Assembly: GCA_030272155.1 (NCBI GenBank)
Contig: CP126196.1
Coordinates: forward strand, 4,650,501 to 4,714,500
Direction: 5' to 3'
From: Tetradesmus obliquus
Lineage: Eukaryota; Chlorophyta; Chlorophyceae; Sphaeropleales; Scenedesmaceae
DNA length: 64,000 bases
Made by a program: the position numbers and the translations under genes. The notes beneath the pieces were generated by a model that saw only the letters and a list, made by a program, of their open reading frames with translations, was not told the origin of the DNA and searched no databases. This document shows positions 2,838 to 26,300 of the stretch, one piece after another (position 1 is the first letter of the stretch; each line of letters starts with the position of its first letter).

Positions 2838-3260
2838 CACAAGCGCTCCCCCGCAGCACCCGGCAGCCCCTTTTGCCTTGGGCAGTGCACAGCGCAGCAG
2901 CTGCAGTGACACTATCAACACATAAACCATAATCCAACTGCCAGCAGCAGCTTACTAGGTGTGTGACACACCCTCCCACCAGCGCTGCCCCGCTGCATCT
3001 GGCAGCCCTTTGGCCTTTTTGCGCAGTGCACAACACTGCTGCAGCAGCCCCGAAACAACACCTGCAAACTAGCTGCCGGCAGCAGCCTACACGCCCTCCA
3101 ACTATCGCTGCCCTGCAGCTATGGGCAGTGCACAGTGCTGCAGCTGCAGTGACGCCCAGCAAAACGCACACATACCTAAGCTAGCTGGAAGCCCCCTACA
3201 CGCCCTCCCACCAGCGCTGCCCCGCTGCACCTGGCAGCCCCTTTGCCTTCAGCAGCATCT
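2838..3260 (-). repeat. Three partial copies of the GH9 terminal-exon end
   Basis: Imperfect copies of the last bases of the 3393-3763 exon occur at about 2838-2880, 2978-3020 and 3205-3275. Each includes the CAGCGCTGGTGGGAGG-like boundary. Elsewhere in this gene such arrays always duplicate an exon edge plus its splice donor. The pattern therefore hints that GCGCTG/GTGGGA is a real donor and that another exon lies further left. Confidence 0.5.
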
Positions 3261-3392
3261 GGATGAACCCGTGTGCACTGTAGATGTAGCAAAACACCCG
3301 ACGAGCTCACACACGGCTGCTGCTGCTACAGCTGCTGTAGTGACGCTCTCTGACAGACAAAAAGATTAACATCCCAGCAGCTAGCAGCAGCC

Positions 3393-6300
3393 TTATTGCA
3401 CGCCCTCCCACCAGCGCTGCCCAGCTGCATCTGGCAGTCCCTTCGCCTTCAGCAGCACCGTCTGAATGAACCCGTTGCCCTGCTGGCACTTGGCCATGTT
3501 AATATCGTCCGCAACCAGCCCTGCCACGGCCGCCGAAAAGCCTGCGGAATTCAGCAAGCTGACCGTATTCGCCGGATTGTTCATGTCGCGGTCATCAACC
3601 CAAGCATCATTATCATCTGGGCCACCGACTAAGCCGCCACGCAGTGTGTGGAAGTTAGGGTCAGTTGTGTAGTAGGCCGTCTCCCAGGTGCAGTCGGAGA
3701 TGTCTGCTGGGGGGCAAGAGGCAGCCTTGTGTGGCGTCTTGCGCGGTTGCACAGCACCGTAGCCTGCACGCATAAGCGGTGAAGGAGGCAGCGGCAGCGT
3801 CAAACACCTTGTGAGGGTGATGAAATGCACAGTTGAAGTTCATAACAGCGCGCACATGCATGTCAGCTCAACGTTTGTGATTTTGACGATGACGCGTGCA
3901 CGCCCAGCACCTCTTATGCATGGCAACGACACGTCATCCACATGTCTAACATGTTGCAATGACACAAAGTGACAAGCAAGGACTTGAGTAACAGCACACA
4001 TGTCACGTGCGAACGCCCCGCACGATGCGGGCCGCATTTCCTACGCATGGCAGTGACATGTCATCAACACGTATGTAACATGTTACTAACACATAGTGAC
4101 AAGGCAGGCCTGCCGTAACAGCTCACCTGTCACATAGGAGCGCCCGGCATCTCCCAGCATATAGCCAATCTGGTTGCGCGCCCAGCATGCATACAGCATG
4201 TAGTTGCCCTTGAGCACGGTTTTGGCAGCAAGCAGTGTGTAGAACGCCGCGTTCGCGGTGTGCTGCAGCGTGCCGTCCGGCGAGGCCTTTGCTAAGCCCT
4301 TGCGCGTGTAAAACACCTCGCTGGAGCCTGCATCGCGCTGCTGCTGACTATTCATCCACTTGTTGACGAACGCGGCCACGTTGGCTTTGTACGTCGCCTC
4401 GCCGGTCACTTGCGCGAGCAGCAGGTCCAGCGCGGGAATTACGTTTTCGTAATTCCATTGGTACGGATTCGAACTCACGTGGCCCTCCGAGGCGACGGAT
4501 TTGCCGTAGAACGCGATCGCCTCGGAAAGATACTTCTGCTGCCCTGTGCCGATGTAGAGCCACACTGCTGCGTAGGCCAGGTCGTCGTGCATTGACACGG
4601 AAGGGTAGAGCTTGCCGGAGTCGATGAACTTGGCGTAGAGGCCGCGCCAGCGCTGCGCGTAGGTGTACAGCAGCTGCGCCTTGGCAAGGTACTTTTGAGC
4701 CACCTGCGGTTGAAAACAACGGGTGGCGGACACGCAAAGGTGAGTGTAAGATCTTCGTGTGCGGAGCGCTGCCAGGAGCATTGCCAGGTACCTCTGACTC
4801 AGAGCTCAGCGCCAACTGCGGGTGAAAACAGAAGGCGTCGAAGATGCAGTGACACCTGGCAAAAGTGACACCAGCTGGCAGTGACACCCGTTTCATGGTG
4901 ACAAATGTACAGCAGCTGCGCCTTGGCCACTTCTGAGCCGCCTGCGGTGGAGGCGCAGAGTGACAGATGTGCTTGAAGATGCAGCCGTAAAGTGCAAGCT
5001 GCACAGCAGCTGCGCTTTGGCCGATGTATCTGAGCCACTTGCGGGTGAGGAATGAGGTGACACACATGCTCAAAGGTGAAATCTTGAAGTGCAAGGTGTG
5101 CGTGAAAGCTTGCTGTTAGCGTTGCCAGCGGGGGCCAGCACACCCCGGGCGTGTGTGGATGTTGCTCAGCCGAGCCCAGAGAACACGCTACAACCCGCGC
5201 TTACTTGCAGTGAGCCTCCCTGAACCGCCACAGCAGCAGCAGCAGCCAAGCCAGCAGCTGCCATGGCCATGTCGTTAGTGCCTGGCACGACTACAGCCGC
5301 ACATCATCCACAAACCTAAAAGCCGCGCTCACCTGCAGAGAGTCCCCTTGCACCGCCACAGCAGCAGCAGCCAGGCCCGCAGCCGTCATGGCCATTGCGT
5401 CAGTGCCTGGCCGGGCCTGTGACAGGAAACTTGCAGGGCGGGGGATGGTGGAACGTTCTGGTTGCCCCCAGTAGGCGCGGTCGCGGGTGATGTCGCCAAC
5501 CTGCAGGGATCGAGTAAAAGTAACAATGTCATAACACACAGCAGGTAACATGAGATGCGGCAGTGCACAGGGGATGCAGCACTGCGTGTGTACGTGGGTG
5601 GGGAAGCAGAATCACTGCTGCCAATCAAAGCAAGTTGAACCATTGCGATGTTACAGCTTGATACCGCCCCTAGAGCTGAGCGCGGACGCATGCTGTCGCC
5701 CAGTCTGCTGATGGCACTCTTAACATTCATCACATCGCGCCATAGGTCAGAAGGCCCATTGCAGACATGTGAATAATAATGATAATAATATCTGCGCGCC
5801 GCACCTGTGCCACAAAGATGGGTTGCACCGTGCCGCTGCTGCTGGTGATGTTTGTGATGGCCACCGTGTTCAGGTAGTCAGCGCCCCAGCGTATGGTGTT
5901 TGCACCGAATTCCAGGTTGTCACTCGCAGCATAGCCCTGTTTGAACTCCCAGTAGGCCCAGCTCAGCAGTGACACCGTAAAAGCAGTGGGGTAGGTCAGC
6001 TTGAGCATGCCGCCTGCAGCACAGCAACATATGTTTTCAGTGTTCACTCTTTTTCATCTGGTCGCTGACCACGTGTTCGCCCTGTTGTGGCTCATACCAT
6101 TCAAGATCAGATGAGCAGTGACACTGTGAAGGCGGTGGAATAGGTCAGCTTGAGCATGCCGCCTGCAACGCAGCGTGGCGACGACAATGGTGAGTTCACA
6201 TCAGCTGGCTGTGGTCAGAGTTGCAAGAGAGGAGTTGAGGAGGCAGTACACATCACTAACACTTTTAAGGTCGCTCGTACCAAGCCACAACCACGCAGCG

Positions 6301-9223
6301 CAACGTAATAACATCGTACCACTTTGTGATGGCACATGCACAAAACACAGGTTCAGGAGCAGGCGGCTGCTGCGTGCAGCACAGCATGCTGTACATCACT
6401 GTGGGCAGGGGTCTCCTGGTTCAGCACTAATAAAAGGGGCTATGCATTGACTGTATAAGTTCGTCCTTTCACATGGCTCACCGTCGTCGTACCAGCCTCC
6501 CAGCAGCGAGTAGTTCTTGCCGTTGGGCAGCAGCACGCTGTCCCAGACGCCGCTGTTGCCGCGCCAGGGCGTGTTGCTGATGCGAGGGAGCTTGCCGGAG
6601 CGCTGCATGCATAAGATGACAGGCAGGCAGACAATATGATGTCAGGCGACTCCTATGTGCGCCTTGTAACTAGTGACACCTGCTGCCAACAGTCACAAGT
6701 GACACCTGCCGAGAAGCTTGCTGGAGCGCTGCATAAGCAATGTAACAGACAGCCAGGTGATGAGCAGGTGGAAATAGCGGGGTGAATATGCGCCAGGGCG
6801 TGTTGATGATGAGAGGAAGCTCGCCGGAGCGCTGCACAAGGAATGTAAAAGACAGCCAGATGATTAGCAGGTGGAAATAGCGTGATGATTCTGCGTCAAG
6901 ACGTGTTGATGATGAGAGGAAGCTCGCCGGAGCGCTGCATAAGGAATGTAACAGACAGCCAGACGATTAGCAGGTGGAAATAGCGGGACGAGTATGCGCC
7001 AGGGCGCGTTGCTGATGCAGGGAAGCTTGCCTGAGCGCTGCATAACGAATGTAACAGACAGCCAGATGATTAGCAGGTGGAAATGGCGGGACGTTGAAAT
7101 GTATGCGGCAGGGCGTGTTGCTGATGCGCGGGAGCTTGCTGGAGCGCTGCATGCATTAGCGCGTCGGACACATCAAGAAAGACAGTCAGCACGTGGAAAG
7201 CAGCGATGGCGATTTTCGCCTGATTGAGCCCACCTGCTGCAGTGATAGGCCGCATGATGCCGTAGTGCCACCCACCTGCATTTAGGGACTGTATTAAAAC
7301 ATCAACGTTACGTGACGTTGCACGTGCTTCAGGTCGAGTTCTTTGAGCACCAGCCAGGTGGACTCCCATAACCATGACACCCGCAGCAGGGACACCCAGA
7401 CCGATGCTAGTGACACCTGCTGCCGAGGTTGTCACTAGTGACACCCACCTGTGCCTCGAAGAACTGTAGTGACACATTCAGCACTTGTCCGAGGTTGTAA
7501 TCATCGGGCACCAGCCAGGTGCAGGCAATGCCTCCAACTGCCATTGCGAAGCTCAGCGCAAAAGCAAAGCTGCAGAAGTCCTCAAAGAGCTCCAGTGACT
7601 TTTGCTTGGGCTTGGGGTCGTCACCTTCTGCTGCTGGCGGGTCCACATCCATGTAGATGTAGCGCAGGAACAGCGCGGGCGGGATCTGCAAGTATGAAAG
7701 CAGGCGCTTTTGTGATATGTATGGACAATGTGACCGCTGCATGCTTATACTTGGGAGTACTGGAGCGGGTCTCCGTCCATGTAGATGCAGCGCAGGAACA
7801 GCGCGGGCGGGATATGCGGGCGACAATAAAATACGTAAAATGACAAATTTATACAGCTCCTGGATTCCAAAGACGTGATTTTGTCACAGGCAAACAACCC
7901 ATCTCAAACGCGCATGCCACAATTCTTCACCTTCGCTGAGGCTTACAGTCGTGTGCAGTCATGCATGGGGACATAACAACAGCAACACGGCAAGTCACTT
8001 CAAGCAACGTATCATGCATTGCACCCTTGCCTGTTCCTTTCCTTTGTAAAAGTGAGATTTCATGAAGCAACACGTCACATAACAGATCTACACAAGCTGA
8101 CCCGCTCACCATGTTGTGGATGGCCCAGAAGACTGACAGCAGCAGGAACCAGCGCACCTCGCCCTGCGCTGTATACGGCTTGTCGATAATCCCAAAGATG
8201 CCAACTGCCGCTGTAATAAACGACAGCAGGAATGACACCAGCAGAACATAGTGGTCCCAGGTACCAGCCATATCTCCGAGGTACTTTGGCTTCAGCCAAG
8301 AGAAGCATCCCCCGCTGCAGATCCTGCGTTTGGGCTTGGAATCGGCGCCATTCGCTGCCGCTGCCGCGTTCTTGGCGCCCGTGACTTTGAAGCCGAGCAT
8401 CTTGCCGGTCAGGGGAGCGATGATCGCTACGTTGATGACGGCTTTCGTGAAGGTGAACCACAGCAGGTGGCAGGAAACGATGCAGAACCACACCGGCTTC
8501 AGGTGCTCCCAGCGGCGCGCGTACTGCACAAGGCGTGGGCAGGCGGGCAAAAACAATTCAGAATCAGCAAAAATTCAACTGTAAAAACATCACAGCGGCT
8601 TCCAGTGCTCCCAGCGCGCATACTGCAAGGGCGAGAGGGATGGGCAACTGGTGACAGCGGATTTGAATTTAGGTTTGCATTTGAATTTCTGAATGCAGAA
8701 CCACACCGGCTTGAGGTGCTCCCAGCGGCGTGCGTACTGCACAAGGATGGGCAGGCGGGCAATCAAGTCAGAGACAACCAGAGGAAGTGATGTGAGTGTT
8801 GGTTTGCAATCAGTGTTCTAGAGTCACACCAGCCGCAAAGGATCCTTGCGGCATGCAGACTGCAGGAGACACACCAGCAGCGACATGCAACTGACATTGC
8901 ATCTTTACCAGCCACGTGCTACTGCAAGCCGTGAATGTCATTTATAGAATCATACATGTCATTTTGGATATTCCAGCTCACCATAGTGACCATGGTTGAC
9001 GAGGTGTAGTACAGCGTAGCCGCAAGTGCAAAGTCGCGGTTCAGCACCAGCGGGTAAACCCCAAACACCAGCGCAATGAAGGGCACCACCACGCTGCAGG
9101 GTACTGCCAGCATGTTGGTGATGTAGCTCCAGGTGACGCTGGTGTACAGCAGGCGCATGTCCAAGGTTAGGCCGGTGTCCAGGAGAGGGCACTCCTTGGA
9201 GAACAGCACCTGTGGAGAAGAGT

Positions 9224-9257
<34 letters not shown>

Positions 9258-9473
9258 GTGATTGGCGTGTACAGCAGCTGCATGTCCAGGGACATTCATG
9301 CGAGAACGTCGCCTGCAGCAGCAGCTGCAGCAGCAGCAGCAGCAGCAGCAGGGTGATCAGCATGTTGGTGATGTAGCTCCAGGAAACGCTGGTATACAGC
9401 AGGCGCATGTCCAAGGTTAGGCCGGTGTCCAGGAGAGGGCACTCCTTGGAGAACAGCACCTGTGGAGAAGAGT

Positions 9474-9507
<34 letters not shown>

Positions 9508-9726
9508 GTGATTGGCGTGTACAGCAGCTGCATGTCCAGGGACATTCATGCGAGAACGTCGCCTGCAGCAGCAGCTGCAGCAGCAGCAGCAGCAGCAGCA
9601 GCAGGGTGATCAGCATGTTGGTGATGTAGCTCCAGGAAACGCTGGTATACAGCAGGCGCATGTCCAAGGTTAGGCCGGTGTCCAGGAGAGGGCACTCCTT
9701 GGAGAACAGCACCTGTGGAGAAGAGT

Positions 9727-9758
<32 letters not shown>

Positions 9759-11311
9759 CATGATTTTGGTGATGTCCAGGTGACGCTGGTGTACAGCAGC
9801 CGCATGTCCAGCGTGAGGCCAGTGTCAAGGAGGGGACACTCCTGGGAGAAGAGCACCTGCGGCAGCAGCAGCAGCAGCAGTAGCAGCAGCAGCAGGTTGA
9901 TCGATGTGTACAGCAGCCGCATGTCCAAGGTTAAGCCGGTGTCCAGTGTGGAGCACTCTTAGGAGAAAGGCACCTGCGGAGAGGACAGTGGAAGCAGCAG
10001 CAGCAGCAGCAACAGAGCCACGCTGATGTACAGCAGCCTTCATCTGGACCTCGCACTAGCGTGAGCGCTGCTATGAGACCTAAGCAACAATCCACCCAAA
10101 GAGCCTGCGAAGCATACAGCTACTGTGCATGTGTCGCCCGGCTTGGCAATCCGCAAGTATGTCAACATGACTCCGCGCACCTGCGTCTGCCCTTTGGGCC
10201 AGCGCGAGCGCTGCTGGGATGGAAGTCCCGACCAACACACAATCCAAAGAGCAATTTGCAAGTTTGTCACAACGTCATGTATGCCCCGCACCTGCATCTG
10301 CCCCTTGCACCTTCACAAGCGCTGCTGGAAGGCCAAACCAACCAGTCAACCCATCACTCTGCAAAGCTGTGGTTGCTTTGTCTACATGCTGCATTTGCAA
10401 CTGCAAATGTGACATGTATTAACGTGTTTACCCCCACCTGCATCTGGCCCTTGCACCAGCGTGAGCGCTGCTGGAAGACCTTGCGCACCGTCTCGGGCGA
10501 GGTGCCAAACACCAGGTACTCGTTGAGGTACCTGGCAGCAGCAGCATGAAGCAGCATGAAGCAGCATGAAGCAGCATGTCAGCCTGTGTACCAACGACTA
10601 AAATTATTTATTCCGTCTGCTTGTATGCTGTGTTAGGTGGGGAAGGCTATGCAGGTAAGCAGATGCAAAACACTAGAACTGTATAAGCCTGCAACGATCC
10701 AAATTTATTTACAATGCTAAGCCCCACCTGGCCTTGTAGCCCTTCGCCTTGAGGTTCATGCCCAGGGTGTAGTCCTCAGTGACTGACCAGGTGGGGAACC
10801 AGCCGCACTTGAACAGCGCATCGCAGCGCAGCCCAAAGTTGGTGCCGGTGCAGGCAATGTACTCCACCGCGTCAGTGCCTGCAGCAGCAGCAGCAGAAGC
10901 GCAGCAGCAGCAGCGGCAGCAGCAGCAGCAGCAGCAATGGCAACGGCGGCACCAGCAAGGCAACATGTGTGTGAGCAAGAGGATGTATACTCGACATGCC
11001 GGGTGCTGCATGGTGTGCATGCACGAGGCCGCAGCAGCCAATAGAGCAGCGGCTGCAGCTGCCGGCAGCAACTGCAGCCTTGAAGAGACGAAACCTGAGC
11101 AGCGTGATGCATGTACAGCTGGCAGGACAACAACGCCATGGGCTGCAACGGCAATGCCAGCTTAAGGGTTCAGGGTTTGGATCCTCTATGTGACTTTTTG
11201 ATCAGTCAGTCCACAAGGCTGCTGACCTGGCAGCATGTACTCCCAGAAGGAGAGGTTGAGGCAGTTGAAGATGTCGTAGGAGGCCTTCACGTCATCAAAG
11301 CTGCGAGGTGG

Positions 11312-11392
<81 letters not shown>

Positions 11393-11751
11393 GGTATTGA
11401 CAGCAGCAGAGCACGCTGTGCATGTATGGGTGGTTCCAATGCAACTGCATAAAGTATGGCTGACGCAGGTTTATCTGCAACTCAGACCGCCAACAATGCG
11501 TACAGAGAAGGACGATCGCAATGTCAACAATAGTATATACTAACATATATGTTATGAAACCACGCTCACTTCTGTGATATGCGGCACAGCGCAATCTCCT
11601 TGTCAGCCGTCACAGTTCTAAGCACAGCATGCGTAACAGGAACATCTCTGTCATGTGCAGTCACCCCAACCTACTCACTTCTGTGGTGTGAGGCACAGCG
11701 CAATGTCCTTGTCAGCCATCACTTCCAGCACACGGCAGAAGAAGCTCTCCT

Positions 11752-11834
<83 letters not shown>

Positions 11835-14800
11835 TGCATTGTTGTGGGAGTGTCCCAACACATCCCTGCCAGCTGTTGGTAAGCACCACAGCATGAACGC
11901 AGACCTGCAGCCGCAGCAAACATTCGGTCAAGCAAGCAAGTCTTGCGGAAGCCATCACTTGCACAGCCAATGACAGCAGCTGCCCCGTACTGCACTATAC
12001 ACTAGGACGCCTCACAGCGACTGCTCCTGCTGCTGTACACATGTGCATGGCAGATGCGCCTCTGAACCTTTTCAAAACAACCAAAACCCCTACGCCTCAA
12101 ACCCCTAAACCCACCACTGGGGCCTGGTCTGCGTCCAGCACCATCATGATCTCGTTGTCCGGGATGGTCTGGTTCTTGGGGTCTGTGAACCCTGGGTAGA
12201 TGACGTTCTTGAGGCAGTTGTTGAGGTTGTTTGACTTGCCGTTGACCTCCCTTACTCGACCTGACCAGAAGCTCGGCACACAGGTATAAGTCTGTAAGAT
12301 AAGACACATTCACCCATTAGTTGCAACGTCCCATGGTCAAGACATGCCGTTGACCTCCCTCACGCGGCCTGCGCACAGCGTGCAACAGAAACAAGCATGC
12401 AAGGCTTCATGTGCAATTGCAGGCATGGTCACTCACATACTGCAGAATGGCTGTGGCACTGTCCGTACCAGACTAGGTGTTCATACATTTTGCTGCACCA
12501 GTGCCATGAAGTGGCGGCTGTGGCAGGCCCAGCCTTACGAATGCAAACTCAGGGCATGCCAAACCCTGAGCACCACCAGCACCATGCTACTCATATGACA
12601 TGCACGCAAGCTTGCGCCACTCACCGTTGACCTCCCTCGCTGTGCGGCCGTCTGCCACGCGCACGCGCCCAGTGATGTAACGCAGCTCAGTGCGGGAGTC
12701 GCTGTACCTCTCAGACAGCCTCTTCACGATGTTGGCCTTGCTCTCCTCACCCTTGTCGTCACCTGTTAGTGACAGTTAGTGACAAGCAAATGTTGTCACA
12801 TTTGGAACATGGCAACAAGTTTGCTGGGGCTGTCGCTGTACCTCTCAGACAGCCGCTTCACAATGTTCGCCTTGCTCTTCTCACCCTTGTCATCACCTGT
12901 TAGTGACAGTTAGTAACAAGCATAACATAATGTTATTGAAATCAGGGAGTCTCGACTCCGTATCCCGGACGATCGTTTCTTTGCTTGTGTGCGAGGCACG
13001 CGCCATTTCGCGTGCACGCATGGGTGCAAGCACAGGTACTGTACTTGCTGGTCACAGGTGTTGCCTGGTATGAAGCCATCCGGCCACCCACCCACCCCTC
13101 CCAGCCCCTACGAGGCACTTCATCACCTGAATACATTGGGAAGTATCTTTTCGTGACGTGCTGTGGGGAAACACCTGCCTGCAAAGTCTGGCAAAGTCAA
13201 AACCCACAACCCAAAACACCAGAAGCCATTGACCCTGGCGAAGAGGCAGAACTGGACGTCGTAATTTGCACGTTTGCTGAAGCAAATTACTGAATAGTTT
13301 ACGAGGCAGCATGTTTTGCCTGATTTTACGTATACATAGACTGTTACTGCTCCACGATGCTCTCCAATGCCTGCGCCTCGCGCGCTCAAACTTCAGCTAT
13401 CAAGGGGGACCACATCTCACATTGCAATGAATCCTCGCTTGCCGTCACAGCTTCATTGACTTCAGAGCAGTTTGAGTCGGAAGAGCCGGTGTAACACGAC
13501 AAATAACGCTGGCCGGAAGGCCACAGTCTCCGTCCTCATTCTATTCGTCCGGGTAAAGTGGTGTGATAACAATCTGACGCGTGAGTCGCTGATCTCCTCA
13601 GACAGCCTCTTTTGATGTGCAAGGCTTCTGGCATTCAAACGCTGCCAAGCATTCAGCCGCCACTCACAGAGGTAGATGGTGCGCTTCGTCTTAGCGGGCA
13701 GCTTCTCCAGCAGCGTCTTCTCCACTGTGTTGCCAACCACGCCATCAACGTGCGTCGATCTGAACTTCTACACATGTGATCTTCTAATATCAGGAAGGCT
13801 ATCAGCTGCGTGACAATGTGCACCTGCCACGACCACTCTGGCAATCCGAAAGAGCCACTCACAGAGGTGGGTGGTGCGCTTGGTTTTGGCGGGCACCTTT
13901 GCCAGCAGCGTCTTCTCCACTGTGTTGCCCAGCACGCCATCAACATGTGTCACTTACTGAACTCCTAAATGTGATATACTTGTAACTAGGAAGGTTATCA
14001 GCTGCACGCTGATGCGCAGCTGCCACTGCCTCTCTGGCAATCCGATGCCCAAATCCCTGCATGCAAGCATTCAACCGCCACTCACAGAGGTAGATGGTGC
14101 GCTTGGTTTTAGCCGGCAGCTTTGCCAGCAGCGTCTTCTCCACCGTGTTGCCCACCACGCCATCATCCTCCCCATAGCAGCAGATCAGCACGTGAACTTG
14201 GAACTGGATATCATCTGGGTCCAGTGGGCTGGCTTCATCTGCCACCGGAAGGCCCTTCACGGCTTTCGGTTGGGTGTAGCGGGTGAGGAGGATGCCGTAG
14301 CTGAGCGTGGCAGTTGCAGAGATGACCTCGATGGCGAGCACCAGCTGCCCGTACCTGTTGTGTAGTGATGGTTGTAGCAGCATTGACAGCGGTAGCAGTA
14401 CGCAGTGCCTCAGTGTGCTTGCGTGAATTGAGTTTTCAGATGTTGTGGGTAGCAGCAGCAGTGGCAGCGGTACCAACGGCGGCGGCAGCAGCGGGTCAGG
14501 AGGATGCCGTAGCTCAGCGTGGCTGTTGCGCTGATGACCTCGATTGCCAGCACCAGCTGGCCATACCTGAGATGGAGGTGGCAATTTCAATAGCAGTGGC
14601 AGTACACATAGTGTCGGTAGCAGGCAAGGTGGTGCATCCATAGCTAAGTGTGGCTGTTGCATATATGGCCTCAATCGCCAGCAGCAGCTGCCCGTAACTG
14701 TTGTGCAGTGATGGTGATAGCAGCATTGACAGCAGCAGTAGCAGTACAAAGTGCCTCAGTGTGCTTGCGTGAATTGAGTTTTCAGATGTTGTGGGTAGCA

Positions 14801-16654
14801 GCAGCAGTGGCAGCGGTACCAACGGCGGCGGCCGCAGCGGGTCAGCAGGGTACCGTAGCTGAGCGTGGCTGTTGCACTGATGCCCTCAATTGCCAGCACC
14901 AGCTGACCGTAGCTGTTGATATTTGCAGCAGCAGCAGGTGGCAGTGGCGGCAGCTCCGGCGGCAGAGCATAACGTGCCGTCAGCAGTATGATGACCACTA
15001 TGGCCAGCACCACCTGGCCGTAGCTGACCAGCAGATGGTGAAGTCGTACGCCACGGCAGCAATGAAGTTCAATGGATGGACAGGCCGCCGCAGCTCCAGC
15101 TTGAAACCTTGCGCCCCTGCCAAATATCAATGCAAACTCAACCCATGCCACAGCAACAGTAGCATGCAGAAGCGCCCAGCAGCACCCCAATACAAAAAAC
15201 TGCAGCGCCCCCCCCCCCCCCCCCCACCACCAAAGGGATGATCACTCACGAGGTGTATCCGATGTTGAGTGTGCGCGTGGCACGGATGATGAAGTAGTAC
15301 ACAGCAGCAGCGATGAAGTACAGAAAGATAGCCAGGCCGCTCCAGCTCCAGCGCTTGACAATGACCGGGTCAGGGCGCGGCGGCTTGCGCTCGTTCAGCG
15401 CATAGATGGGTTCCTTGATCGGCTGTTAGGGTTGGGGTGGCGGCAGCAGCAACAGCAGTGACGTCAGATTGATGTGTATGGTGAGCCATGATTCAGCGGA
15501 ACAACCACTGGGCAATGTTTTGATGGCGTTGATGGGCTGCTTCAGGCAGCAGCGGCGGCAGCAGCAGCAGCAGCAGTTGCTTGTGGAGTTTAAAGATGCC
15601 TCCTGCCGCTGCATAGCATTCTCACACGAATCAACGACAAAGTCATGTGCTGCGCTGCATGCTGTGCAGTGCACGCAGAGACACCCACTCACTGTCCCTG
15701 CTGACCGATCTGATCCCACCCACCTGCGGCAGCGGCAGCTTGCCATACACCTCCTGCTGCTCCATCAGCAGCCGCTGCTTGGGCAGCATGCTGTAGCCCT
15801 GCCTCATATGAAGCTCCTCCTGGCTGCCGCTGGTCAGCACAGCCACACCGCCACCTGCAAGAACATTAGATAACAGTATGCTAGCGTGAGACATCCAGCT
15901 TCCAGACACACGAGCGCAATTGTTTTGGTGCGTGCAGCTCCTCCTGGGAGCCGCTGGTCAGCACAGCCACGCCACCACCTGTAAGAACGTTGGATCAGAG
16001 TATGCAGAGTGACACATCCCAGCTGCAAGGTGCAAGAGTGCGTTTGGCTGTGTGCATGAAGCTCCTCCTGGCTGCCACTGGTCAGCACAGCCACACCACC
16101 ACCTGCACATGCAATCACGAATGACAGAGTCAGGCCATGTAAAACGTATTGTTGCAATCGTGCCATATGGCCCTGCCGCACATGCAGCTCCTGGGAGCTC
16201 CTGGGAGCCACTGGTCAGCACAGCCACGCCGCCGCCTGCACATGCAAGCACGAATGACAGAGTCAGGCCATGTGAAACATACTGTTGTGATTGTAGCATG
16301 TGGCCCTGCCGCACATGCAGCTCCTGAGAGCCACTGGTCAGCATAGCCACGCCGCCACCTGCAACAATGAAGGATAACAGAATGCTTGTGTGAGACACTC
16401 AGCATCTAGGTACACAAGTGACATTGTTTTGGTGCATGCAGCGCCCGGCGAGAAGAGGGCCTCTTGGGAGCCGCTAGTCAGCACAGCCACGCCGCCGCCT
16501 GCACATGTATTCAGGAAGAAGCCAGAATATGTTGTGTGGCGTGTTGTTGGTGCTGTGCACTGTGAGCCACAACAATGCGATTGTGCTGCCACTCCTGCAA
16601 ACAGTGTGTCGCCTGCCCTCTGCTCAACCACATACAGCAGCAGCCACAGCTGCC

Positions 16655-16689
<35 letters not shown>

Positions 16690-18194
16690 CCCCACCTGCT
16701 GGGATGTGGTACGCCTGCACGCCGCCATATGACGCCGGCAGCCCCGAATTCGAACTTGACTGTGAATTTGAATTCACTGCCTCCAGGTACTGAAGTTCAC
16801 TGTGAGCTGGGATGCGGAACTTCGGGTCGTAGGGCTTTGCATTTAAATCGCAGGGGTCATGATGATGTTGGTGGTGGTGCTGGTGGGCTTGGTGGTGGGC
16901 TGCCGGGCTGCCGGTGGCATGCTTGGGCGTGCCAATGCGCTTGTGTACGTTCAGTTGGCTGCAGGCGGCAGGCAGAAAGGTGGCAGGTGATGACTCTCAG
17001 CGCATTGCTGTGTTTGGTGCAGTGAATAGTGGGCGAGGGCGAACGGTGGCGTGCTTGGGCGTGCCGATGCGCTTGAGCACGTTCAGCTGGCTGCAAGCGG
17101 CAGGCAAAAAGGCGGCAGGTGATAGGTCTCAGCGCATTGCTGGGTTTGATGCAGTGAATAGTGGGAGAGCGCAAATGGTGGCATGCTTGGGTGTGCCAAT
17201 GCGCTTGTGTATGTTCAGCTGGCTGCAAGCGGCAGGCAAAAAGGGGGCAGGTGATGGATCTCAGCGCATTGCTGTGTATGATTCAAAGAGCAGTTGGCTG
17301 CTGGGCTGCCGGTGGCGTGCTTGGGTGTGCCGATGCGCTTGTGCACGTTCAGCTGGCTGCAGGGTGGCAAGAAAAGAGAATTTGCATGGATGTGGCAAGT
17401 GGTGAGGGCTTTTCATTGTCGCAGTAGGATACCAGCAGTGGGTGGTCATCAGGTTGGTCTCTTGAAGTGATGCAGCACGGGTGGCTCTGCATTGATATGC
17501 TCTGCAATACTTGCAGGTTCACTTCCATCAGCGCGCTGCAATGCAGCATTGGATATGCTGCATCTAATGCAGCAACATGCTAATTTCACTCAACCAGGCA
17601 CTCACATGGCAGTGCTGTGGGCAGAGCTGGACGTCTCACGGCACACAAAGCACTAACTGCCCGGACCCACATGTAACTATCCTCTCTCTCTAAAACAGGC
17701 ATGCTGGTCACAGATCACGTTGTTGCCAGTCACATAGTTGTCTCACATGGCAGTGCTTCGGGCAGAGGTTGGCGTCTCAGGACATACAAAACACCAAACA
17801 CAAGCAGGCTTTTGTACATATCACACTGTTGCCAGGTACCAAAGTTGACTCACATGGCAGCGCTTCTGGCAGAGGTGGCCGTCTCTTGCCACACAAAGCA
17901 ATGCAACAATTTGCTGTTCACACACAACACGTTTCACTCAATCAGCCACGGACACTGTCCGGCATGGCATGGCTTTGCTGCAGTCACAATCAATCAAACA
18001 AAATTTAACACTCACATTGCAGTGCTGCGGGCAGAAGTGGGCGTCTCATGGTCCTCTGTGATGCTCCTGCTGCTGCTGATGCCCCCATTCAGGCTGACCG
18101 ACTGCAGCTCTGCTGATGATGCAGCTGGCTGTGCATGCCTCCCCGTGTTTATGGCCTTCAGGTTTGGTTTTGGGGGGTCGTGCATCTTATCCAT
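3393..18194 (-). CDS. CESA: Cellulose synthase (GT2) fused to a GH9 endoglucanase-like domain
   Basis: Polymerises UDP-glucose into cellulose at the plasma membrane, with a C-terminal GH9 module. I read exons 18016-18194 (ATG), 16696-16958, 15724-15854, 15250-15422, 14086-14354, 12625-12762, about 12115-12250, 11679-11749, 11227-11300, 10728-10878, 10438-10531, 8982-9209, 8110-8523, 7449-7685, 6482-6602, 5805-6013, 5333-5500, 4127-4703 and 3393-3763, about 1,330 residues. Junction phases agree except around 12250-12630, where the boundary is unclear. Order: His/Gln-rich cytosolic N-terminus, two helices, GT domain, further helices, linker, one extra helix, GH9. GT motifs present: CDDKG, DAD in VLDADQAP, TED in VTEDYTLG, QRSRW, and a gating-loop-like FKVTGAK. 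Plant RING, P-CR and CSR regions are absent, so it resembles the non-plant eukaryotic cellulose synthases. The last exon may continue further left: a donor-like site overlaps its end. Confidence 0.5.
4785..5275 (-). repeat. Copies of GH9 exon edges in the intron between 4703 and 5333
   Basis: Degenerate copies of the 5' edge of exon 4127-4703 lie near 4905-4935 and 5000-5046. A copy of the 3' edge of exon 5333-5500 lies at about 5200-5275. All keep the exon orientation. Confidence 0.5.
6046..6108 (+). repeat. Dispersed repeat, copy 1
   Basis: Shares about three quarters identity by eye with 41342-41438 and with the complement of 47563-47653. It contains GTGTTCGCCCTGTTGTGG and, translated, VFALLWLIPFK. 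Confidence 0.5.
6700..7150 (-). repeat. 103-bp tandem array of a GH9 exon head with splice acceptor
   Basis: Five copies of the 5' edge of exon 6482-6602 end at 6728, 6831, 6934, 7037 and 7146, against the real edge at 6602. Spacing is about 103 bp for most steps. Each copy keeps the CAG/CGCTC acceptor context and the RSGKLPRISNTP-like reading, so the intron carries several decoy or alternative 3' splice sites. Confidence 0.5.
8590..8745 (-). repeat. Two copies of the head of cellulose synthase exon 8110-8523
   Basis: The acceptor plus the YARRWEHLKP-coding edge recurs at about 8596-8625 and 8703-8742 upstream of the true exon. Confidence 0.5.
9210..9980 (-). repeat. 250-bp composite repeats: exon head plus CAG tracts
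   Basis: The head of exon 8982-9209 recurs with junctions near 9459 and 9711 (steps of about 250 bp), and again in diverged form near 9855 and 9970. Each unit holds the VLFSKECPLLDTGLTLDMR-type edge, an acceptor and two CAG microsatellites. These units create long open frames on the minus strand that are not genes. Confidence 0.5.
10030..10330 (-). repeat. Copies of the QxxRW exon tail with donor
   Basis: The 3' edge of exon 10438-10531 (coding RSRWCKGQMQ) recurs at about 10180-10222 and 10284-10330, with a fainter trace near 10040-10075, each with a GT donor. Confidence 0.5.
11314..11391. repeat. (CAG)26 microsatellite
   Basis: Perfect CAG run about 13 bp upstream, in the transcribed sense, of exon 11227-11300. 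It reads CTG on the transcribed strand. Confidence 0.5.
11753..11833. repeat. (CAG)27 microsatellite at a splice acceptor
   Basis: The run (one CAA interruption) directly abuts exon 11679-11749. On the minus strand the intron ends in CTG repeats whose last CTGCAG supplies the AG acceptor. Confidence 0.5.
13600..13950 (-). repeat. Two copies of the tail of cellulose synthase exon 14086-14354
   Basis: Blocks at about 13660-13752 and 13850-13945 repeat the VGNTVEKTLLAKLPAKTK-coding tail and its donor, still open. If spliced in they would duplicate part of the GT domain. Confidence 0.5.
14500..15030 (-). repeat. Four copies of the head of cellulose synthase exon 14086-14354
   Basis: Copies of the SYGQLVLAIE-coding edge with acceptor end near 14568, 14698, 14913 and 15024. 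The true edge, chosen because its phase joins the previous exon and continues into the GT domain, is 14354. Confidence 0.5.
15208..15225. repeat. Poly-C run of 18
   Basis: Homopolymer in a cellulose synthase intron just upstream of a CCACCACC stretch. It is a likely site of length variation. Confidence 0.5.
15930..16500 (-). repeat. 125-bp array of cellulose synthase exon head (15724-15854)
   Basis: Five copies end at about 15978, 16102, 16235, 16358 and 16498, roughly 125 bp apart. Each keeps an acceptor and a GGVAVLTSGSQE-like reading. Confidence 0.5.
17040..17360 (-). repeat. 133-bp array of cellulose synthase exon head (16696-16958)
   Basis: Three copies with acceptors at about 17090, 17222 and 17356 repeat the QLNVHKRIGTPKHAT-coding edge at steps of 132-134 bp. 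Confidence 0.5.
17606..17900 (-). repeat. Copies of first-exon tail with donor
   Basis: The 3' edge of the first cellulose synthase exon (18016-18194) recurs with donors at about 17616, 17747 and 17854. Confidence 0.5.
17663..17692 (+). repeat. Dispersed repeat, short fragment
   Basis: Matches only the end of the family: GGACCCACATGTAACTATCC followed by TCTCT. Confidence 0.5.
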
Positions 18195-19827: not shown

Positions 19828-22800
19828 CTACTTCTTGCTAGGCTTGCTGCTGGGCTGGCTGTTGTGCCAGAAGTCAGACACAGCACACAGCCACGCCCTG
19901 TCGCCCTGGCCACTGCTGCTGCTGCTGTCCCTGGTGTGTCCCAGCAGTACCAGCCGCCGGTACAGTCCCAGTGCCCAGATGGGGAAGATGTTCCTGCAAG
20001 CAGCACAACAGGTGGCGACAGTTGAGCAGTATAACATGTGTGAACAGTATGATGACAATCAATCAGCAGTACAATGACAGATGGTAGGCAGGGGTAGGCA
20101 AAACAAACACTTAGCAGGACAGCACCACAAGGATTATTTGAGCAGCAGCAACAGTACACAGCCTGGCAGAGTTCGCCGTGGTAAAACATGCATTCGCTTA
20201 AACCCGTGGTAAAACAAGCATTCGCCCAAACACAACGCGCTGCCAAAAGCAACTGCAGTTGGCGTGCGAGTGTCGATGCAGTCAAGGCAGCCACCCTCCA
20301 CCCTAAAACACCTGACCAAGTCTATGACGCAGTAACATGTAGTCAGCGTAAGTGATCATGCAGTTGCGATTGAACACCCCGCTGATGTGCTGCTACTTAC
20401 ACGACCCCAACCCTCTATAGCCTCTACCCTGCACCCCAAACCCCAAACAAAATTTATCCAACCCCTTACCTGTAGTTGGCGTAGGTGATCATGCAGTTGC
20501 GGTTGAAGACGCCGCTGATGTGCAGCTGCGGCCAGTCGCCGCTGGCCTGCTGCGCCCCCAACACGCCAGTGATGTGCTGCCATGCAGGAGCCTTGACCCT
20601 GTACCCTGCTTTTATAAACCCCATACCCAACACTTTACCAAACCCTCACCTGTAGTTGGCGTAGGTGATCATGCAGTTGCGGTTGAACACCCCGCTGATG
20701 TGCTGCTGCGGCCAGTCGCCACTAGCCTGCTGCGCGCGCATCAGGAAAGCAGCGCACTTGTGCAGCGGCTTAGGGTCTATGGTGTGGTACCCGGCAGCCA
20801 GCAGCGCCATCATGGCCCAGGCGGTGTTGACCACGTGGCTCTCGCCCTCCAGCTGGCTGTACACCTGTTATGTAACACGTTACAGTGTCATTGTGAGATG
20901 TAAATACATGTGGAATGATGTGGTACGGTAGCTGACAGCCAGCAGGGGCAGCATGGCCCAGGCGGTGTTGACCACGTGGCTCTCGCCCTCAAGCTGACTG
21001 TACACCTGTTACACAACATGTTACATAACAAGTAAGGCAGTGTGTTATTTTTTGCATGAGTTTTTCGAAATGGTGTGACACCCGGCGGCCAGCAGCGCCA
21101 TCATGGCCCAGGCGGTGTTGACCACGTGGCTCTCGCCCTCCAGCTGGCTGTACACCTGTTACGTAACATGTTAAGTAACACGGCAACATGTCACATCAGG
21201 GCCTGCTGTGAATGCTGCTGCCAGACAGTGCCAAGGAGGACATGCATCCTGCTGCACACATCAACCCCACTGTAACAGACACGACCGCCGCCACCCGCAC
21301 CTGCACAAAGCTTCTCTCCAAATTCTCACGCAGCTGTCATGAAACCCACGCTGCGACGCACCTTGTCCTGGCAGGAAAGGTAGCTCTCGCCCCAGCCACC
21401 ATCCAGGCGCTGCTTGTTCACCAGGAAGGAGCAGGCCTTGTGCAGTGCGGGGTCACATCACGCTGCCAGCCAGTAGTGTGAGATCGCAGAACACCTCCTT
21501 AGCACACACGCACATAACCCAATAACCACCAAAAGCAGAACCCAACCCACCTTGTCCTGGCAAGACAGGTAGCTCTCGCCCCAGCCGCCGTCCAGGCGCT
21601 GCTTGCCCACCAGGAAGGAGCAGGCCTTGTGCAGTGCAGGGTCACTAGCTGCTGTGTGGCCGCGGCAGGCCAGTGCTGTGGCACCGAACCAGGTGCCATA
21701 GGTGAAGCACACGCCCCAGCTGCCGTACCTGCATGTTGAAACAATGTGTTGTTTGAAGTGTTAATCTCCATATTGATGACAGAGTGATGTGGCCAGGTTC
21801 AACACCAGGCTGCGGCAGTTCAAGCCGGCTGCATGCTTGCGCTGCAGGTCTCAACATCAGCAACACATTCGGAATTTGAACATTATTCATGCGGGTTCGT
21901 ACGGGTTTAATACGTTTTTCATACAAGCAGCAGCCTCACCAGGTGCTGTTTGGCTGCTGCTTTCAAAAAATGACACAATCAGGCCTTTAACCGTATCATG
22001 TGATGTTAGTATGAGCAGCCAGCCTCACCAGGAGCCGTCAGGTCGCTGGATGCGCCGCACGAAGGCCTCCGCCTTGGCCAGCGCTGCTGCGATGGGATTG
22101 GACCAGCTGCAGGGCACAGGCAACAAGCAGGTGGGTGCGGAAGGTAGCAGGTGCAGTGATTGTGAGTGGCGACTCAAGCACATATGGGCATGGCAAAAAT
22201 GTATATTGCAGCACGGCGTCGGGCAGCAGCATAGCACGGGGCAGCAGCTGCAACAGAGACAAGCAGCAACGCAACGGCACTAGCTAGTCGGTGGGTGTGA
22301 AGATGCGTAGCAAGCATGCGCCGCACGAAGGCCTCAGCCTTGGCCAGCGCTGCCGCGATGGGCTTTGACCAGCTGCAGCAAGCAAATGCAGATAGGTGCA
22401 GTGGGTTGGTGTGTGGCCACTGAAGCACACATCGGACACAGCAAAGAGAGGGTGTGGAGATGCATAGCAAGCATAAACCGCACGAAGGCCTCAGCCTTGG
22501 TTAGCGCTGCTGCGATGGGCTTGGACCAGCTGCAGGGCGCACAGGCAGCAAGTAGGTGCAGAGGGCAGTATGTGCATCAGCAAATAATTGGTGTGTGGCC
22601 GCTGCAGCGAGTATGGGACATAATGAGGCAGAAAAAGGGATGCGATTCAACAGGGGCAGCAGCGCTGCTGCGAAGGGACCTGGCCAGCTGCAGGCATCAG
22701 CGTCAAAAAGGGACAGGTGAGTGGAGTGCCATACCCATCTACGAACACCTCAAAACTCAAAGCACACCTGCTGCCTGGGTAGAGCCTGTCGAATGCGCTC

Positions 22801-23239: not shown

Positions 23240-23331
23240 GCAGCAGTGGTCAGAGCAGTGCGAAGATGAGCACTCCACGTAGCTGTAGTCCACAATGATG
23301 TCGCCAAAGGCTTCGGCGGGGTTCAGGATCT

Positions 23332-23362
<31 letters not shown>

Positions 23363-26300
23363 TGGTCAGAGCAGTGCCAAGTTGAGCACTCCATGTAGCT
23401 GTAGTCCACAATGATGTTGCCAAAGGTTTCAGCAAGGTTCAGGATCTGCAGCAGCAGCAGCAGCAGCATGATGCTCAACAGCAGTCCACAACAACGTCGC
23501 CATATGTTGCCGCGGGGTTCAGGATCGTGCCAGCAGCAGCAGCAGCAGCAGCAGCAGCCCACCCGCAGCACTCCCACTACCCCACCCACCTCCAGCCAAT
23601 GGAAGCTCCTCGTGTTTTCATACGTGGCCATGCCGCCATCGCTGTTCTGGTAGCTCAGAATGACCCGCACAGCTGCCTCCAGCCTCTCTCTGCTGATGCC
23701 TTCTCCCACTAAGCCTGGCTGCTGCAGCGCCGCTAGGCCCAGTGCTGCTTTGAAGCCCTCCCCTGTGCAGTCGGAAATGGGCCAGCCGTGGTCTCTGCTG
23801 CTGAAGGGCCAGGCGCCGCGGCTTATGTGGCGGTAGTAGCGGGAAAGGGGAGGTGCTGCCTCGGTCACAACCTGCAAACAGTCGAATCAGTTGAAAGAGT
23901 GGCAAACTGAGGCGAATTGAGGTGTTTTACAGGGATTTGGGGTGAAAAAACAAAAACCGGTGCAGTCGGAAATGGGCCAGCCGTGGTCTCTGCTGCTGAA
24001 GGGCCAGGCGCCGCGGCTGATGTGGCGATAGTAGCGGGAGAGGGGAGGTGCTGCCTCGGTCACCACCTGAAAGCAGTCAAACCAGATGGCAAAAAGGCAA
24101 ACAAGGGTTGAAGGAGGTGAGATGGTGTGTATTCAGGGTGTCGAGGGTGAAAAAGGTAGAGAGCCGGTGCAGTCAGAAATGGGCCAGCCGTGGTCCCTGC
24201 TGCTGAAGGGCCAGGCGCCCCTGCTTATGTGGCGGTAGTAGCGGGAGAGGGGAGGTGCTGCCTCGGTCACAACCTGAAAGCAGTCAAACCATATGGAAAA
24301 AAGGCAAACAAGGGTTGAAACAAGGTGAAATAGTGCGTATTCAGGGTTCTGAGGGTGGAAAAGGTAGACAGCCGGTGCAATCGGAAATGGACCAGCCGTG
24401 GTCTCTGCTGCTGAAGGGCCAGGCGCCGCGGCTAATGTGGCGGGAGAGCGGCGGCGCCGCCTCCATCACCACCTGAAAGCAGTCAATTTAGTTGAGAAAC
24501 GGGCAAGAAAAAGTTTAAAGTAAGGTGAAATAGTGCGTATTCAGGGTCACGAGGTTGGAAATAAATAGTAAGCCGGTGCAATCAGAAATGGGCCAGCCGT
24601 GGTCCCTGCTGCTGAAGGGCCAGGCGCCGCGGCTTATGTGGCGGTAGCAAGAGAGCGGCGGCGCCGCCCCGGTCACCACCTGAAAGCAGTCGAGTCAGTT
24701 GAAAGAATGGCAAACAAAAGGTGAAATGCCGCTTTTGAAGTGATTTGTGGGTGAAAGTACAGCCGGTGCAGCCAGAGATGGGCTAGCCGTGGTCCCTGCT
24801 GCTGAATGGCCAGGTGCTCAATAAACAAAACCGCCCAGGCTCACCTGGCTCTGTTCGCTGTAGCTGTGTGCCTTTTCCAGTGCCCCTTCCGGCACATCTG
24901 TGAGCTCACTGTCCAGCATGGCCTAGAACAACCCTGAAAACTGACAACAGCCCTATACTTCACCCAGAACCACAAACAATAAACCCCAAATAACACCGCA
25001 ACGGCTGTGCTCAATGTAGGCGTGCGCTTTCCTCAGTGCTGCCACAGTCATACCCGCGAGCCCGCATGAAATAAACAAACCACCCCTGAGTTAAACTTGA
25101 ACATTGCCACACCTGGCTCTGCTCGATGTAGGCGTGTGCCTTCTTCAGCGCCCCTGCCGCCACATCCGTGAGCCCGCTATCCAGCATGGCCTGCACGGCA
25201 AAGCTGGTGTCCCACAGCTGGCTGCCGTTGTAGCCCTGCACGGCAGCAGCAGGCAACACATGGATGTGGCTGCTGAACATGTGAACTCAGCAAATGATAT
25301 CACCTTGCAAAGCTGGCGGTGAACATCTGGCTTTTGGTGTAGCCCTGCGCAGCGGCATCAGCAGGTTCGCAGGTCAGAGGTCACACATACAGGGATGAGC
25401 CAAGCATGCATTCCTCATGTCCTCCGTGACACCCAGGTAACATGCCATGTATACGATGTATAACAACAAGGAACAGCTGAGACTAACAAACAGCAACACC
25501 CACCTGCATCTTCATGCCGTCCTCAGCCACCCACAGGTAGTCGTGCAGCCGCGGCAGGTGCCTGGGCAGCAGCAGCAGCAGCAGCAGCAGGTGTCAGGAA
25601 AGTCAGCACTACGGGTGACGATATCGACGAAGGTTTGCCAGGATCAAAGGGTCTAGGCTGTGGATGGGGCTGGCATGATGTGGATGGATGGGGCTGGCAT
25701 GATGTGGATGGATGGGGCTGGTATGATGTGGATGGATGGGGCTGGTATGATGTGGATGGATGGGGCTGGCATGATGTGGATGGGGCTGGCATGATGTGGA
25801 TGGATGGGGCTGGCATGATGTGGATGGATGGGGCTGGCATGATGTGGATGGATGGGGCTGGCATGATGTGGATGGATGGGGCTGGCATGATGTGGATGGA
25901 TGGGGCTGGTATGATGTGGATGGATGGGGCTGGTATGATGTGGATGGATGGGGCTGGCATGATGTGGATGGGGCTGGCATGATGTGGATGGATGGGGCTG
26001 GCATGATGTGGATGGATGGGGCTGGCATGATGTGGATGGATGGGGCTGGTATGATGTGGATGGATGGGGCTGGTATGATGTGGATGGATGGGGCTGGTAT
26101 GATGTGGATGGATGGGGCTGGTATGATGTCGCAACCTAGCGCCCAGCGCAGTGCAGTGCCGCACACTCTCCTATTCAAGGCGGCGCTTGTGGGGCCTTGC
26201 ACCAGCAGCACAGGCTGTTGACATACCTCACCACATGGGGAGTTTGTTACACTTGATACTCATATACACATAGGCCACCCACGATCAAACACAGTGGTGC

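Follow-up and report, generated by a model that had tools for sequence, protein, structure and literature searches.

How glucan chains gather into microfibrils after leaving the synthase, and why proteins with a cellulase fold so often accompany cellulose synthesis, are questions raised anew by a gene in a 64,000-nucleotide stretch of the Tetradesmus obliquus genome (assembly GCA_030272155.1, contig CP126196.1, positions 4,650,501 to 4,714,500; hereafter the window). On the minus strand of the window, a predicted cellulose synthase of family GT2 continues in frame into a domain with the GH9 cellulase fold. Does a cellulase fold joined to a synthase in this way still cut the chain? We lean towards reading the gene product as a seven-helix cellulose synthase that carries an extracellular GH9 pseudo-glycosidase at its channel exit, where the domain would serve in binding or assembly and not in cutting. 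A synthase whose cellulase fold is without the cutting residues separates binding and assembly from hydrolysis.

The window copy of the gene (W) was modelled as fifteen exons running from 14354 to 3393, with GT-AG junctions in phase and no internal stop, which encode 1088 residues and end in TAA. Exon borders were picked by hand from reading frames, motifs, and splice sites; a spliced aligner supplied with the W protein and the stretch containing helix 1 returned identical borders, an agreement by construction and not a second proof. Pfam assigned residues 595-1043 to GH9 (PF00759, E = 7.2e-88, profile positions 3-442 of 444), a full-length match that places the domain in the GH9 fold family, and residues 175-363 to GT2 (PF13632, E = 5.1e-19; also PF13641, 6.5e-15, and PF03552, 1.8e-6). 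In the PDB, the best relatives of W were GH9 endoglucanases, with 1KS8 at E = 9.1e-79, and bacterial cellulose synthase, with 5ej1 at E = 5.5e-21. The motifs of a processive cellulose synthase are all there (LCDD, LDAD, TED, and QRSRW), and the corresponding columns (DD, DxD, TED, and QxxRW) are invariant in an alignment of four of the six fusions described below. The polymer that W would make as a cellulose synthase is a beta-1,4-glucan.

A first-pass annotation of the window had proposed a single gene in which cellulose synthase and GH9 are linked within one exon, 7449-7685, and both points were borne out. As modelled from GT-AG junctions and Pfam matches, W is one gene with a GT2 cellulose synthase fused in frame to a GH9 domain, and the GH9 match opens inside that exon, 13 residues ahead of RSGKLP. 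The annotation had also called the hydrophobic helix before GH9 new. The helix is present, but it is not peculiar to fused genes: elsewhere in the genome, a GT2 relative without the fusion (C2:8451-8457 kb; L039) has the same last helix, and tunicate CesA is reported to join its hydrolase after helix 7 (PMC6523144).

We searched the entire genome (104.66 Mb, 17 contigs), the sole eukaryote genome compared, and labelled the paralogs by contig. The W protein recovered two near copies (C2:6208-6213 kb and C3:89-95 kb), while a profile of W, C2, and C3 recovered three more distant fusions at about C8:1580-1594 kb, C14:4170-4189 kb, and C12:3454-3470 kb. In homology-guided models built from the DNA, all six loci have GT2, the last hydrophobic helix, and GH9 in this order on one strand, and the spliced models as printed contain no stop; those of C8, C12, and C14 are approximate, with some very short exons and, for C8 and C14, low-complexity stretches. 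Helix 7 and the GH9 start share one exon in C8, and a single exon of C14 holds the second half of helix 7 together with the GH9 start. An intron of 251 bases follows helix 7 in C2, and one of 107 bases does so in C3, which has a further 215-base intron before RSG. The least direct link is that of C12, where three introns (2030, 623, and 230 bases) and an exon of only 3 residues split the passage from helix 7 to GH9.

By our own grouping, the counts of which are lower bounds, the genome contains sixteen GH9 genes: six fused and ten stand-alone. No GT2 match was found beside the ten stand-alone genes, including by tblastn of only about 2-5 kb upstream, a span that does not strictly exclude a remote GT2 exon. 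One of them (C15:2264-2270 kb; L040) aligned slightly upstream of RSG and was considered as a further fusion, but its upstream 2 kb gave no GT2 match; its catalytic residues are intact, and an upstream Cys-rich stretch resembles, by eye, a CBM1-type cellulose-binding module. Downstream of the unfused GT2 gene L039, no GH9 was detected, nor did the genome-wide outline have a GH9 match there. We also rejected a hidden GH9 in the final 2.1 kb of L039, most of which (about 1.8 kb) lies downstream: spliced alignment scored 38.5 compared to 29.0, 28.3, and 24.8 for three shuffles of the same stretch, and the resulting 35-residue reading was unlike GH9. L039 may be a gene from which GH9 was lost, or one that never carried it: only 2% of bootstrap trees for GT2 unite the fused genes in a single group, although no well-supported branch requires more than one change. 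Two further GT2 genes (C15:3904 kb, L037; C6:318 kb, L038) are of a different, BcsA-like type; both read HAKAGNINSALL and sit on a long separate branch. Outside this genome, the GH9 query and the GT2 alignment found no relatives in viral contigs and the GT2 alignment found none in bacterial or archaeal contigs, a weak search based on two to six short peptide patterns.

We aligned the six fused and ten stand-alone GH9 domains with two PDB sequences, using the numbering of 1KS8, whose catalytic residues we take to be Asp54, Asp57, and the catalytic acid Glu412. The catalytic Glu was present in none of the six fused domains and in all ten stand-alone genes (loss in 6/6 versus 0/10; Fisher's test, p = 1.2e-4). 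Its column reads T in W and C3, A in C2 and C8, and R in C12; for C14, which was read after adding 2 kb of DNA to a shortened model, the stretch contains no Glu. Likewise, both catalytic Asp residues were retained in 0/6 fused domains compared to 9/9 stand-alone domains with a readable N-terminus (the model of C11 is without that part). The replacements follow two patterns, with Asp57 changed to Gly in W, C2, and C3, and Asp54 changed to Met in C12, C8, and C14. Direct comparison of W with 1KS8 by phmmer placed DDGG opposite DAGD and NTV opposite NEV. The loss of Asp57 from the DAGD motif is not an artefact of splicing, given C2 reads GGWYDDGGM within one exon. In addition, the first His of the PHHR motif is gone in five of the six fused domains. 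W hence has neither the catalytic Glu nor the complete pair of catalytic Asp residues of an active GH9 hydrolase. Because this Glu and one Asp are lost, the domain would not be expected to cut the chain.

Loss of these residues is accompanied by low ratios of non-synonymous to synonymous substitution (dN/dS) in the three closest copies. For GH9, NG86 gave values of 0.20 (W-C2), 0.17 (W-C3), and 0.22 (C2-C3); YN00 yielded a value for just one of six comparisons, 0.085 for GH9 between C2 and C3. Such ratios suggest that the GH9 domain has been retained in W, C2, and C3.

Where the domain would act depends on the topology of the synthase. In all six fusions, hydropathy plots, a permissive method that also flags some stretches inside GH9, show a pair of helices preceding GT2 and a final helix immediately ahead of GH9. 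Helix 4 is sub-threshold in W, C2, and C3. The stretch ahead of FKVTG reaches 1.74 in W and 1.49 in C3 and is sub-threshold in C2, C12, and C8. In BcsA, the stretch of this type next to the gating loop is interfacial. If the same holds here, the protein would have seven helices and GH9 would be outside the plasma membrane; the first-pass annotation had argued conditionally for GH9 outside the cell, and we accept this line of reasoning. N-glycosylation sequons number 1-5 per fusion in or just before GH9, but 1-2 also occur in the GT2 part of the six fusions and they are therefore weak support for an extracellular domain. With this topology, the seventh and last helix of the synthase would lead straight into the GH9 fold and position it at the mouth of the glucan channel. 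There, a domain devoid of the catalytic Glu and one catalytic Asp could hold, guide, or dock the emerging glucan or adjacent synthase units, for instance as microfibrils assemble. To judge from the residues it has lost, the fused domain probably guides new cellulose rather than cuts it.

Several observations weigh against a non-cutting, extracellular GH9 that acts on the glucan. Should the FKVTG-adjacent stretch and helix 4 both cross the membrane, GH9 would be inside the cell, and hydropathy does not settle which topology applies. The six losses are also not six independent cases: the fused GH9 domains fall into two clades, with a single origin in 32% of bootstrap trees, and fusion and residue loss may be linked by just one or two evolutionary events. 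The selection analysis covers only W, C2, and C3 of the six fusions. Moreover, the GT2 half of W (8110-15422) is on a long branch (0.60 versus 0.06 for C2 and 0.13 for C3), with NG86 dN/dS of 0.41 (W-C2) and 0.29 (W-C3) compared to 0.15 (C2-C3), which suggests that the synthase half of W may be changed or weakening despite the presence of its motifs; the GH9 half differs less from its paralogs in branch length (0.23 versus 0.12 for C2 and 0.14 for C3). Finally, Trp301 of 1KS8, which is conserved in the controls, is gone in all six fused domains, which makes simple binding of glucan in the old cleft less likely.

The absence of Trp301 bears on the strongest rival, namely that the fused GH9 has given up contact with glucan and serves as a module for protein-protein contacts or for assembly of the terminal complex. 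Loss of this residue and of the active-site residues in 6/6 domains, while many conserved positions stay (59 of 92 control-conserved columns in W, C2, and C3), is what such a module would look like, and the low dN/dS is equally in keeping with it. However, no partner or interface is known, and Tyr53 and Trp221 are retained in all six domains, compatible with residual contact with the glucan. We consider this explanation unlikely but deserving of serious attention.

It is improbable that the fused GH9 is still a hydrolase that works through altered residues and, tethered to the synthase, trims disordered chains in the manner of KORRIGAN. The GH9 fold is matched end to end and possible substitutes for the lost residues exist, which likewise count against a non-cutting domain: next to the retained Asp54, position 55 is an additional Asp in W, C2, and C3; Asp57 is retained in C8, C12, and C14; and C12 has a Glu at the Tyr408 column, four positions before the lost Glu. 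Yet the catalytic column contains no Glu and one Asp is missing in every fused domain, the first PHHR His is lost in most, and the stand-alone GH9 genes of the same genome keep these residues.

Slightly more doubtful still is the view of the GH9 half as a relic that is being lost in evolution. The unfused GT2 relative without a detected GH9, the many partial exon copies in the W introns, and the strong divergence of the type-II domains (C8, C12, and C14), with just 30 of the 71 control-conserved columns that could be read in all three still retained, would all fit with decay; this divergence also weighs against a maintained function there. In contrast, the GH9 dN/dS of 0.17-0.22 and the spliced frames that stay open across GH9 in W, C2, and C3 speak for a domain in use.

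A false join of two neighbours, a GT2 gene and a membrane-anchored GH9 gene, is very improbable, even though such an anchored GH9 (KORRIGAN) occurs in land plants, gene structure here was read from DNA alone, and the C12 passage is interrupted by long introns: a single exon contains the link at W and C8 and, counted from the middle of helix 7, at C14, the introns after helix 7 in C2 and C3 are short, and domain order is identical at six loci. A fusion has also been reported independently in Coccomyxa (PMC3446292). We judge the tethered active cellulase, the relic, and the false join each to be less likely than an extracellular pseudo-glycosidase at the channel exit.

The exons of W are listed in Table 1. 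The exon of helix 1, which lies upstream of the fifteen modelled exons, has tblastn matches at each of the five paralogs (E between 1e-16 and 0.004). Base 14354 finishes a codon begun in the preceding exon and was omitted from the translation. At the junction of 12762-12625 with 12260-12115, W repeats a few residues that are absent from the paralogs, and the border is uncertain. The model begins at 15422; a putative start ATG was placed further upstream, at 18194, by the first-pass annotation. The gating-loop and interfacial labels given to exon 8110-8523 follow work on BcsA.

Table 1. Exons of the window copy of the GT2-GH9 gene, in order of transcription.
Feature	Position in window	Strand	Basis or remark
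Exon, transmembrane helix 1 (SGLAIFLYFIAAAVYYFII)	15250..15422	-	Read by eye; matches at C2, C3, C12, C8, C14; AG before, GT after
Exon, transmembrane helix 2 and start of GT2 domain	14086..14354	-	CAG precedes; ends CTCT|gtgagt
GT2 exon, LCDD motif completed via splice with preceding exon	12625..12762	-	Spliced model
GT2 exon, DAD (DxD) motif	12115..12260	-	Spliced model; 5' border with preceding exon uncertain
GT2 exon	11679..11749	-	Spliced model
GT2 exon	11227..11300	-	Spliced model
GT2 exon, TED motif	10728..10878	-	Spliced model
GT2 exon, QRSRW (QxxRW) motif	10438..10531	-	Spliced model
Exon, transmembrane helices 3 and 4	8982..9209	-	Spliced model, hydropathy; helix 4 sub-threshold in W
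Exon, interfacial-type segment, FKVTG gating-loop-like motif, helix 5, most of helix 6	8110..8523	-	Spliced model, hydropathy
Link exon, end of helix 6, linker, helix 7, start of GH9 match (NVSLQFFEAQ)	7449..7685	-	Spliced model, Pfam
GH9 exon, RSGKLP ... GGWYDD	6482..6602	-	Spliced model
GH9 exon, GGMLKL, Gly at Asp57 position of 1KS8	5805..6013	-	Spliced model, alignment
GH9 exon	5333..5500	-	Spliced model
GH9 exon	4127..4703	-	Spliced model
Last GH9 exon, NTVSLLNSAGF with Thr at catalytic Glu position of active GH9, stop TAA	3393..3763	-	Spliced model, alignment

The W gene region (2967-14911, minus strand) also holds 25 partial extra copies of its own exons in nearby introns or flank, beside 12 of the 15 exons tested; exon 9209-8982, for example, has four such copies. 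At the same threshold, none were found in the models of C2 (9 exons) and C3 (14 exons). Measured from the exon of helix 1 to its end, the gene is about 12 kb long in W, against some 5 kb in C2 and 6 kb in C3. Adjoining the fusion gene, the window contains exons of an oxidosqualene or squalene-hopene cyclase (20646-21760, minus strand; PF13243, E = 2.1e-9 and 8.9e-12), and a third stretch put to the same search (23323-23886) gave no match.

Compared with known systems, W shares its GT2 core, with DxD, TED, and QxxRW, with the bacterial synthase of structures 4hg6 and 5ej1 (E = 5.5e-21), which we take to be BcsA of Rhodobacter. Unlike W, BcsA has a PilZ domain at its C-terminus and no GH9. KORRIGAN (GH9A) of land plants is a separate protein, anchored in the membrane by a single helix and regarded as an active hydrolase, whereas the GH9 of W is fused to GT2 and is without the catalytic residues. 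The first-pass picture of a KORRIGAN-like pairing hard-wired into one protein is hence too simple, as it implies an active hydrolase and the catalytic Glu and one Asp are gone in every fusion. KORRIGAN itself has been reported to take part in cellulose synthesis (PMC3537678).

Fusion of GT2 to GH9 is not new, contrary to an early supposition that no GH9 version had been described, since such proteins were reported in Coccomyxa subellipsoidea C-169 (Blanc et al., 2012; PMC3446292). Both algae combine GT2 and GH9 in one protein, known for T. obliquus from gene models, and both have several fused copies: four of nine GH9 proteins in Coccomyxa (PMC3446292) and six of sixteen GH9 genes here. The available part of the Coccomyxa text speaks of glycosyl hydrolase and cellulase domains with no mention of catalytic residues (PMC3446292), whereas here these residues are lost. 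Among the matches listed, we found no report of an inactive GH9 in such fusions in the open-access literature, which misses most subscription journals. The T. obliquus genome has both kinds of GH9 gene, the fused ones looking inactive and the separate ones intact.

The closest parallel is that of tunicates, rightly invoked in the first-pass annotation as a precedent for a hydrolase fusion. Tunicate CesA joins GT2 to GH6 (PMC7464555, PMC6523144) and is described as having seven membrane helices, with GH6 following the last (PMC6523144). The catalytic Asp is not conserved in CesA-GH6, and many stand-alone tunicate GH6-1 proteins keep it (PMC7464555). It counts against a non-cutting parallel that the activity of this domain is disputed, with cellulase activity credited by one report (PMC3446292) and still to be determined according to another (PMC7464555). 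In both lineages, a synthase is followed by a cellulase-fold domain without a catalytic residue that many separate proteins of the same fold keep, which suggests that cellulase folds acquired a non-cutting role at the channel exit more than once. Tentatively, we raise the possibility that fusion of a cellulase fold to the exit side of a single-subunit cellulose synthase took place at least twice among cellulose-making organisms, and that the chemistry of the fold was then switched off. The result would be a pseudo-glycosidase outside the cell that directs nascent chains into microfibrils or puts the terminal complex together. The two cases would represent independent choices of hydrolase fold, with GH6 taken up in an animal lineage and GH9 in green algae.
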